DNA from: a bacterium
GTDB taxonomy: Bacteria > Eisenbacteria > RBG-16-71-46 > CAIMUX01
Length of the DNA stretch: 64,000 bases
NCBI GenBank assembly: GCA_030431975.1
Contig: JAUIHP010000010.1
Span: forward strand, 1-64,000
Reading direction: 5' to 3'
Shown: one piece after another, positions 1-2,278 of the stretch
Layout: each line of letters opens with the position of its first letter
How positions within the stretch are numbered: the first letter of the stretch is position 1
Translations under genes and position numbers: made by a program
Notes under the pieces: generated by a model
What the model saw: only the letters and a program-made list of their open reading frames with translations
Told to the model about the DNA's origin: nothing
The model's database searches: none

Positions 1-477
1 GGGGGGGGGGGGGGGGCAGTTGCCCGTACCGAGGGTTTCGAGTCCGGCGATTCGAGCTGCGACGATTTCGCCGTACGTCCGATATCGATCGGCATCCGAC
101 CCTGCCCGTGTGCCCATACTCAGAACGAGGGCACCGAGCAGCCCAGTGGAGGTGCCTACAGCAACGAGCTTCAGATCCTCCTGGTCCTCGTTCTCGGAGA
201 GCGATGAGAAGGAGATGACTGCCCCCAAGCAAGTAAGGATCGTGCCTTGAGCCAGCATCCGCCCACTCTTGACGGATTCGGCTTTCCAGCGATACGCCTT
301 CTCTAGAGTCCGAAGCTCTTCGAGGTCGTAGGTTGGGATGTAGTGGGAAGGCGGCATTGAAACGAGAGCCTCGGCTTCGTCTGCAGTGAGTCCGAGTCCC
401 TGAGGGCCGGGCCTCGTGTAGGCGCAGGCAGAGCTGCCGACGATGGCGCCGATCAGGAGGAACCGCAGAAAACACAT
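1..477 (-). CDS. Partial cassette-borne lipoprotein-like membrane protein (3' end off window)
   Basis: The minus-strand frame is open from an ATG at 477 to the window edge, giving at least 159 codons without a stop. The first 16 bases are a G run that is probably an end artefact. The protein starts MCFLRFLLIGAIVGSSAC, a short lipoprotein-like signal, followed by a soluble stretch and two hydrophobic segments (about residues 80-95 and 104-122) separated by an acidic SENEDQ turn. An in-frame ATG at 489 is possible, but GGAGAG at 490-495 is better spaced for 477. An attC site ends directly upstream (496-502), so this is the third cassette gene of the array. No family is recognised. Confidence 0.6.
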   Translation of the reverse strand, partial: MCFLRFLLIGAIVGSSACAYTRPGPQGLGLTADEAEALVSMPPSHYIPTYDLEELRTLEKAYRWKAESVKSGRMLAQGTILTCLGAVISFSSLSENEDQEDLKLVAVGTSTGLLGALVLSMGTRAGSDADRYRTYGEIVAARIAGLETLGTGNCPPPPP

Positions 478-495
478 GCTATGCACCATCTCTCC

Positions 496-606
496 GCCTA
501 ACGTCTCTGGGGTTCAGCTGCAGCCCGACCCCGCAGGGGGCTTGGCGCGTCGCTTTGAAGGGGCGGCGTGACAAGAGGGTCTGTCGGCTGCAATCTCTTG
601 TCAGAC
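496..606 (-). other. Integron attC recombination site (cassette of gene 615-1202)
   Basis: On the minus strand the site starts with a degenerate R'' box GTCTGAC (606-600; one change from RYYYAAC) and ends with R' GTTAGGC (502-496). Between them lie an L''/L' inverted repeat (GAGATTGCAGCCGAC against GGCTGCAGCTGAACCCC) with one unpaired G in the left arm, which corresponds to the extrahelical base of attC sites, and a central stem. The internal sequence CTCTTGTCACGCCGC and the end CAGAGACGTTAGGC are shared with the site at 1203-1310. It lies immediately downstream of the stop of the gene at 615, as expected for a cassette. Confidence 0.85.
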
Positions 607-614
607 GTCAAGCG

Positions 615-1202
615 CTACCTCCCGCCGTGAGCTGGATGACCTAGAGCCTTCCGAATGACCTCTTGGGCCTGCTTGCGTGTATCAGCGTAGACGATGAGCT
701 CCTCGTCACGGTAGAACTTCACTTCCTGGCAGGTGAAACACAGTTGTGCCGACCATTCAACTTCGTCATCCGCCCAACGAAGCAAGTAGTCTGGCCTAAA
801 TCCTCCGCACGCCTTCGGTGCTCCGAAGCGAATGAAGGCCGTACGGTCGAGAACGGTGGCCCTGACTGCGCTAAGGGCTGCCGGTTCCAATGACAGAGGC
901 TGAGGGAAGAACGGATGTTCCAGTATCTCGACCGTTGGGGTTGTCGCGATCTTGTGACGCAGCCATTCCCGACCGGCTGGGTGTCCGAGGCCCTGGAGAA
1001 TCTGCAAAGACTCTCTGGAGCCTTGGAAACTCGCCAGGACTTCATCGACTCTGTCGAACGATTCGCGTTCCCATTCGAAGCCGATCGAGTCAGGAAGCTC
1101 GACATACTTAGGTTGCTCAGGGCGATCACTTGGGCGAAGCAGGTACAGAGAGATGGCTGCTGCCGCAGCGAGAGACATGAGTAGAAAGTGTCTGCTCTGC
1201 AC
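615..1202 (-). CDS. Gene-cassette protein of unknown function, membrane-anchored
   Basis: A 195-residue protein starting at GTG 1202, right after the R' box of the neighbouring attC. An ATG at 1178 would drop the basic n-region. Residues 1-22 (MQSRHFLLMSLAAAAAISLYLL) form a signal peptide or N-terminal anchor; the rest is predicted soluble. A CFTCQEVKFYRDEELIVYAD segment near the C-terminus carries two cysteines, and a further Cys lies in KACGG, so a disulfide or metal site is possible. The gene is flanked on both sides by attC sites (496-606 and 1203-1310), so it is a single-gene integron cassette. No family is recognised and no function is assigned. Confidence 0.75.
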   Translation of the reverse strand: MQSRHFLLMSLAAAAAISLYLLRPSDRPEQPKYVELPDSIGFEWERESFDRVDEVLASFQGSRESLQILQGLGHPAGREWLRHKIATTPTVEILEHPFFPQPLSLEPAALSAVRATVLDRTAFIRFGAPKACGGFRPDYLLRWADDEVEWSAQLCFTCQEVKFYRDEELIVYADTRKQAQEVIRKALGHPAHGGR

Positions 1203-1310
1203 GCCTAACGTCTCTGGCGATCAGCTGCAACCCGACTCGAAGTGCTTGGCGCGACGCTTGGAACAAGCGGCGTGACAAGAGGGACTGTCAGCTGCATCGC
1301 CGTGTTAGGT
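1203..1310 (-). other. Integron attC recombination site (cassette of gene 1318-2052)
   Basis: On the minus strand R'' is ACCTAAC (1310-1304) and R' is GTTAGGC (1209-1203), both perfect matches to RYYYAAC and GTTRRRY. The arms GGCGATGCAGCTG and CAGCTGATCGCC pair fully except for one extra G in the left arm, the signature of attC folding. The site is 108 bp, within the attC size range, and strongly resembles the one at 496-606. It begins 8 bp after the stop codon of the gene at 1318. Confidence 0.9.
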
Positions 1311-1317
1311 CGCAGGT

Positions 1318-2052
1318 TCATCTGCGACGGTCCTTGGAACTCGGACGTGTCCCGAGGCGAGCCTTAAGGTCCCCCCATGATTTGAGGACCGTTGGCGTCG
1401 GCTCACACGGGATCACTTCAGCTCCGATGTGGAGCGCCTGGGTCGCGCCCCACGCGACTGAAAGGTTCTGCCAACCAGTCGGATATCCAAGCCCCGGCGC
1501 GAAGTTTGATTTGGAGCGACCGCCACCGGTGCCATCTAGGTCGGCTCCGATGAACCAGCCGGCAAGGGCATCAGGCCAGTCGCCCCAGTACCCCACCCAC
1601 CAGGCGCTTGGAGTGCATCGGCCGAGACTTACCGGCACGGAATGTCGACTAAAATCCGGATACTGAAAAATCGCACCAGGATCAACCGAGGGCTCCATCG
1701 CAAGGACCGCTCCAGGAACACCGTCGCTGTCTTCCCAGACATAGACATCCATTGTCTGATCCTGCTGGCTGATTTGACCGAAATCGAAGAACACCGAGCA
1801 GATCTGAACCACGGTCGAGTAACCCTCCGCAAAAGCGCCGTAGTAGGGAGCCTGGACGCCCCCGTACTGCCAAGCATATGCGGCTTCGATGCGGCCATCG
1901 GAGTTGAAGAGGACTTCACCACAGGGTTCGCCGTCGAAGGCGGGTTCATCAGCCTCAACCTTCGAGCCGACCGCGACTTGAGCAGTCACCGGAACCGGCA
2001 ACGCGAAGAGCATCACGAGAAGAATCCGTACGTTGCGCGTCCAGACGCTCAT
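1318..2052 (-). CDS. Secreted cassette-borne protein with SWG-x-L-K C-terminal motif
   Basis: A 244-residue exported protein. ATG 2052 was chosen over an upstream TTG because it has GAGGAACGAGAA upstream and begins a clean signal peptide (MSVWTRNVRILLVMLFALP...AQ). The mature part is rich in aromatic residues and Gly/Asp, resembling a beta-sandwich, with four or five Cys. Near the C-terminus PTPTVLKSWGDLKARLG precedes a basic tail; the same SWG-x-(I/L)-K-A pattern ends the protein at 63442. attC 1203-1310 follows its stop, making it the first cassette of the array, nearest to tRNA-Leu. The function is unknown; the tail may be a sorting or anchoring signal. Confidence 0.75.
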   Translation of the reverse strand: MSVWTRNVRILLVMLFALPVPVTAQVAVGSKVEADEPAFDGEPCGEVLFNSDGRIEAAYAWQYGGVQAPYYGAFAEGYSTVVQICSVFFDFGQISQQDQTMDVYVWEDSDGVPGAVLAMEPSVDPGAIFQYPDFSRHSVPVSLGRCTPSAWWVGYWGDWPDALAGWFIGADLDGTGGGRSKSNFAPGLGYPTGWQNLSVAWGATQALHIGAEVIPCEPTPTVLKSWGDLKARLGTRPSSKDRRR

Positions 2053-2079
2053 GTTTCTCGTTCCTCGCGTGCCCTGTCG

Positions 2080-2098
2080 ACCCAACGCGGCGTTGAGC
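2080..2098 (-). other. Possible collapsed attC or attI core at array boundary
   Basis: On the minus strand GCTCAAC (2098-2092, fits RYYYAAC) and GTTGGGT (2086-2080, fits GTTRRRY) are only 5 bp apart, just upstream of the first cassette gene. This is where an attI site or the preceding cassette's attC should end. The L boxes and loop are missing, so it may be a deletion remnant or chance. Confidence 0.3.
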
Positions 2099-2194
2099 CG
2101 AAGGAGCCCGGCTCGCTCGAAATGGGTCGATCAAAAAAGTGCAGCGTCATGCGCACGCGACCACCCTGCTCGTGTCTCTAGTTGAAAATCAATG

Positions 2195-2278
<84 letters not shown>

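Follow-up and report, generated by a model that had tools for sequence, protein, structure and literature searches.

An integrase-less integron cassette array beside tRNA-Leu, probably derived from a chromosomal integron

Two attC Sites Follow Small Genes at the Start of a Contig

Do the small genes at the left end of this DNA belong to an integron, and, if so, where is its integrase gene? We analyzed the first 64 kb (the window) of contig C49 (199,627 bp), which belongs to a draft genome of 6.19 Mb in 59 contigs that is 97% complete (G000). The locus comprises the following features:

17–489, minus strand: cassette 3 gene, truncated by the contig end; lipoprotein-like N-terminus, no Pfam match
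496–606, minus strand: attC site 1, R'' GTCTGAC at 606–600 and R' GTTAGGC at 502–496; the recombining (bottom) strand is the plus strand of the window; one family with site 2
502–1208, minus strand: cassette 2, 707 bp, limited by the R' boxes of both attC sites
615–1202, minus strand: cassette 2 gene, 195 aa, hydrophobic N-terminal stretch, no Pfam match
1203–1310, minus strand: attC site 2, R'' ACCTAAC at 1310–1304 and R' GTTAGGC at 1209–1203; bottom strand folds at −33.6 kcal/mol
1209–2085, minus strand: cassette 1, running from TTGGGT (5' end) up to the R' box G of attC site 2
1318–2052, minus strand: cassette 1 gene, 244 aa, signal-peptide-like N-terminus, no Pfam match
2080–2097, minus strand: array 5' boundary, GCTCAAC-gcc(g)c-GTTGGGT, an attI- or attG-like insertion point, read from the sequence and deduced from the match to the R'' box of cassette 1
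2139–2156, minus strand: terminator-like hairpin with a T run between tRNA-Leu and cassette 1 (one found against 2.2 expected by chance, weak by itself)
2194–2278, minus strand: tRNA-Leu (TAA), upstream of the array and co-oriented

An earlier note on this DNA had described two attC sites with correct R'/R'' boxes, pairing L boxes, and an extra unpaired base, each behind the stop codon of a small gene on the same strand. Both sites were confirmed on the sequence at 496–606 and 1203–1310, and their conserved blocks are 87–91% alike. Site 2 is a textbook attC, in which both boxes fit the consensus (R'' RYYYAAC, R' GTTRRRY) and the bottom (plus) strand folds at −33.6 kcal/mol compared to −23.6 for the top strand (z −6.3 against dinucleotide shuffles, none of which folded equally well). 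Site 1 has a perfect R' box, but its R'' box GTCTGAC deviates from RYYYAAC, so that the description of correct boxes is only partly true there; its fold is also weaker (−23.2 for the bottom and −16.6 kcal/mol for the top strand, z about −1.5 to −2.3). The remaining structural claims stood: in both sites, the inner arms are paired and L'' is one base longer than L', giving the imperfect palindrome of an attC with the better-folding bottom strand. The latter was the more stable strand in 15 of 15 sites tested by single-stranded DNA folding, an expected attC trait. Likewise, the genes at 1318–2052 and 615–1202 end 7 and 8 bases before the sites, respectively, i.e., the sites lie just past the stop codons in gene orientation, as in cassettes. 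An Rfam search reported the tRNA alone and no attC match, and scanning named genomes and viral contigs with the exact attC stem as a DNA pattern yielded 0 matches.

Cassette 5' Ends Match Their Own R'' Boxes

In an excised cassette circle, the first bases of the cassette (TTRRRY) join the G of attC and thereby rebuild an R' box that pairs with the cassette's own R''. The variable bases at the 5' end of a cassette should therefore agree with its own R'', even though the two lie hundreds of bases apart. The 5' box of cassette 1 (GTTGGGT, 2086–2080) matches its own R'' ACCTAAC in six of seven positions over a distance of 877 bp, and the 5' box of cassette 2 (GTTAGGC) matches GTCTGAC in five of seven. 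The variable bases of 5' box and own R'' read GGT/GGT in cassette 1 of the window, GAA/GAA and GAT/GAT at the gpmA locus described below, GCT/GCT on contig C33, and GGC/GGC on contig C18. For 12 cassettes from G000 and the sister genus (G002), 30 variable positions matched compared to a mean of 19.2 in shuffled pairings (p about 5e-5); for 29 cassettes including those of other genomes, the counts were 75 and 39.8. This matching places the 5' end of the array at GTTGGGT (2086–2080). We infer that IntI was once active in this strain. Each unit would have been a mobile circle, with IntI recognizing the folded bottom strand of attC, cutting R' between G and TT, and joining the circle to attI, to another attC, or to a loosely specific genomic GTT (attG).

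The other end of the array is not contained in the contig. C49 begins at the first base of the window, so that the array runs leftward past the contig and not merely past the window; the poly-G stretch at 1–16 is probably a sequencing or assembly artefact.

The attC Family Recurs in the Genome and Accompanies intI Elsewhere

When site 1 was compared to its own genome by BLAST, 12 further places matched strongly or partially; they lie on contigs C18, C33 (at two loci), C47, and C49. At least 10 further sites of the same kind are spread over four other array pieces or orphan loci, and the clear sites align at a mean column identity of 82%. Co-oriented gene rows lie between the sites at the left end of C33 (L029), at 184.6–185.4 kb of C33 (L030), and at the right end of C18 (L031). 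A covariance model (R1) was built from 11 G000 sites. As these include the window sites, its scores on the latter are circular and were not used as proof; in the remaining 62 kb of the window it found nothing above 10 bits. In G002, a genome of the same family, R1 identified two sites (74 and 72 bits) directly downstream of an intI gene, whose product scores 455–458 bits with TIGR02249 (cut-off 265). R1 also matches rows of sites that accompany IntI in two MAGs, one of Candidatus Krumholzibacteriota (L144) and one of Rokuibacteriota (L109), and in the genomes G003, G009, and G025. The covariance-model check that the earlier note had proposed thus came out in favor of attC, since the model matches arrays next to true intI genes in other genomes.

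The same note had named ordinary dispersed repeats, unconnected to gene ends, as a finding that would overturn its reading. Palindromic repeats of the REP or MITE type, or terminators, might indeed resemble attC, and two orphan stems lacking R boxes lend this some weight. The first (C47:164796–164907, minus strand; L032:6797–6908) is by eye about 93% like the stem of a cassette and is located directly 3' of a Ku gene and 5' of a ligD-like gene; it may be what is left of a lost cassette, or else a relative of attC that resembles a terminator. The second (C10:340947–341040, plus strand; L093:6948–7041) is more diverged and directly follows a molybdopterin-oxidoreductase-like gene. However, nearly all sites lie at gene ends in co-oriented arrays, and the stem pattern is almost confined to such arrays: a genome-wide scan returned the known places, the extra stem on C10, and one chance match, with no orphan stems beyond those on C47 and C10. 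Together with the linkage of the same attC family to IntI in other genomes, the highly significant matching of cassette ends refutes the repeat explanation in the main, and we regard it as extremely improbable.

Several minor observations concern the other arrays. A mini-attC of 41 bases on C18 (L031:11212–11252, minus strand) has an intact R' box and no variable terminal structure, which was apparently lost by deletion between two CAGCTG arms. The C33 array is broken up by an IS21-like istA/istB pair (L029:3800–6048).

The intI Gene Is Absent from the gpmA Locus

The earlier note had reported no integrase gene within 60 kb to the right of the array, and the entire 199.6-kb contig contains no tyrosine recombinase. 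Three PF00589 genes are present in G000 (contigs C41, C35, and C18). A TIGR02249 search of this 97% complete assembly revealed no IntI above the cut-off of 265; the best matches were Xer-like (70 bits), and with the G002 IntI as query, Xer-like proteins were again the only matches (best 50 bits). A complete integron with intI and attI is thus not seen in G000. Among relatives from the same order, IntI exceeded the cut-off in nine of the ten searched (G001–G009).

The integron of G002 is complete: gpmA is followed by intI and then by cassettes, and intI points in the same direction as the latter. In G000, the gpmA orthologue (70% identical) lies on C33, a 269-kb contig, far from its ends. Cassettes begin about 20 bp past its stop codon, leaving no room for intI, so that intI was probably deleted there. 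A homogeneous attC family (82% identity) and an anchor common to relatives (gpmA adjacency in two genera), both seen here, are the marks of a sedentary chromosomal integron. The genes upstream of gpmA differ between G002 and G000, and gpmA is therefore the only gene that carries the synteny; roughly estimated, coincidence would produce this shared neighbor with a probability on the order of 0.2%. In the simplest history, an ancestral integron stood behind gpmA and its intI was deleted in the lineage of the window.

On these grounds, the window very probably contains the 5' end of an integron cassette array, i.e., a cluster of attC sites lacking an integrase (CALIN) derived from a chromosomal integron whose intI was lost. 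The host would once have had an integron behind gpmA, as the sister genus still does, and after the loss of intI at that place the cassettes would persist at several loci as CALINs, presumably immobile at present. The earlier note had left open whether the array is a CALIN or the end of an array continuing to the left. Both apply: the array extends beyond the contig, and the assembly yielded no intI.

Alternatively, the integron might be complete and working, with intI in an assembly gap and the window being a broken-off piece of the array. Because breaks in the draft fall within or next to arrays (at the left ends of C49 and C33 and the right end of C18), intI could lie in such a gap. The array pieces at the left end of C33 and the right end of C18 run into contig ends with IS-like sequence, leaving their 5' ends unseen; in related drafts, intI is often near contig ends, and draft assemblies are known to yield too many CALINs (PMC9024848). 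However, the locus orthologous to the intI site of the sister genus was assembled without gaps and lacks intI, as does the assembled 5' end of the window array itself. Furthermore, R'' is degraded in 9 of 11 sites in G000 compared to 0 of 17 in intI-linked or sister arrays. We therefore consider a hidden intI unlikely, albeit a possibility of real weight. As to the breaks themselves, the contig ends C33-left and C18-right bear IS-like GTGTCACCYATGTCCC sequence, which likely caused them. Joining C49 to C33 or C18 by overlap of contig ends was attempted and rejected; the ends have attC repeats alone in common, and no such join can be claimed.

R'' Boxes Are Mostly Non-Canonical

R' retains GTT in 10 of the 11 G000 sites, while R'' ends in AAC in 2, the other endings being GAC, CAC, AAA, and AAT. 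In sister or intI-linked arrays, both boxes are canonical in 17 of 17 sites. Fisher's test gave p-values of 8e-6 for R'' between the two groups and 0.002 for R'' versus R' inside G000, values that overstate independence because the sites share ancestry. Decay after the loss of intI predicts erosion of both boxes, and it leaves the asymmetry between R'' and R' unexplained. The ending GAC recurs in five sites, so R'' may be an inherited variant instead of a product of decay, and such a variant may have been tolerated by the old IntI.

The predominance of non-canonical R'' beside intact R', and the two R-box-less stems behind the Ku and oxidoreductase genes, could also be read as stems existing apart from cassettes. 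A genome-specific hairpin, terminator-like or mobile, would then become an attC when core boxes arise beside it. We judge this improbable; if true, it would answer the question of how cassettes acquire near-identical attC sites.

The tRNA-Leu Neighbor Appears Incidental

The array lies beside tRNA-Leu, as the earlier note had stated, but nothing that we found gives the tRNA a role, and this neighbor looks incidental. Under the CALIN reading, cassettes would have been laid down successively, starting at a GTT some 108 bp 3' of tRNA-Leu, and an attG-type insertion at a chance GTT would fit this locus. An alternative is a genomic island that an island integrase inserted at the tRNA-Leu 3' end, with the cassettes as cargo. 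This would agree with the location of the array, which lies 108 bp beyond (downstream of) that end, and with the different neighbor in G002, where a Na+/H+ antiporter gene and no array is found on that side of tRNA-Leu. Yet the contig encodes no island integrase, no duplicate of the tRNA 3' end was found in the array pieces fetched and examined, the array starts at a cassette core box and not at the tRNA, and no attC match was obtained near tRNA-Leu in other genomes of the order. An island origin is accordingly very improbable. The G000 counterpart of the antiporter gene is located on contig C15, and the empty site could therefore not be rebuilt.

Comparison with Known Systems

Like the CALINs defined with IntegronFinder (Cury et al., PMC9024848), the array combines two or more attC sites with cassette genes on a single strand, and no intI is nearby. 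It differs in that G000 carries several CALINs without any intI found, belongs to a poorly sampled lineage, and has mostly degraded R'' boxes with R' kept. In Xanthomonas, chromosomal integrons have intI anchored at ilvD, often lost, with CALINs at other loci (PMC12444791). G000 resembles this in its presumed ancestral intI behind a housekeeping gene, the apparent loss of that intI, and its CALINs at several other loci; in contrast, its anchor is gpmA, its host is not a proteobacterium, and one extra CALIN lies by tRNA-Leu. As far as the account in PMC12901181 goes, attG insertion at a genomic GTT (Loot et al. 2024, cited therein) may be comparable in that our array starts at a GTT in ordinary chromosome by a tRNA.

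The intI gene of so-called inverted integrons is co-oriented with the cassettes. G002 shows this arrangement, with intI on the same strand as its cassettes, whereas G000 is without intI and another relative, G005, has the classical divergent arrangement.

Integrase-less cassette arrays are already known, and the present one is a sound new example that adds a little-studied lineage to those with chromosomal integrons. As a hint at the phylum only, the 16S rRNA gene of G000 had its best match, among 20 genomes compared, in a Candidatus Krumholzibacteriota MAG (83% identity), and we found no paper combining this phylum with integrons. The two genera form a clean pair, with intI kept at gpmA in one and apparently lost in the other, which could be used to time the decay of attC core boxes after intI loss and to ask where cassettes obtain their attC.

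Cassettes Encode Unstudied, Apparently Exported Proteins

The expectation that the cassettes encode unknown exported proteins was borne out in part: none of the three proteins has a Pfam match, and their N-termini resemble, by eye, a signal peptide, a membrane anchor, and a lipoprotein signal, respectively. The cassettes bear unstudied, apparently exported protein families. For the family of the cassette 1 protein, G000 contains about 28 matches, which are often domains within large proteins, and G005 contains 12. One G005 copy sits between an attC-like site and an intI gene and therefore looks like an integron cassette. Members of this uncharacterized exported family (window 1321–2052, minus strand; L207:1566–2261; L206:2377–3069) have in common a recurring C-terminal tail resembling SWGxIKxxYR, which may be a sorting signal.

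Other G000 arrays encode HigA-like, PIN-domain, and TonB C-terminal proteins as well as many of unknown family, the former being content of a type known from chromosomal integrons. A search of the cassettes for defence genes gave weak matches only. Cassette 3 of the G002 integron (L082:5645–5974), which has no NCBIfam match, appears by eye to encode a pair of an antitoxin and a ParE/RelE-type toxin.
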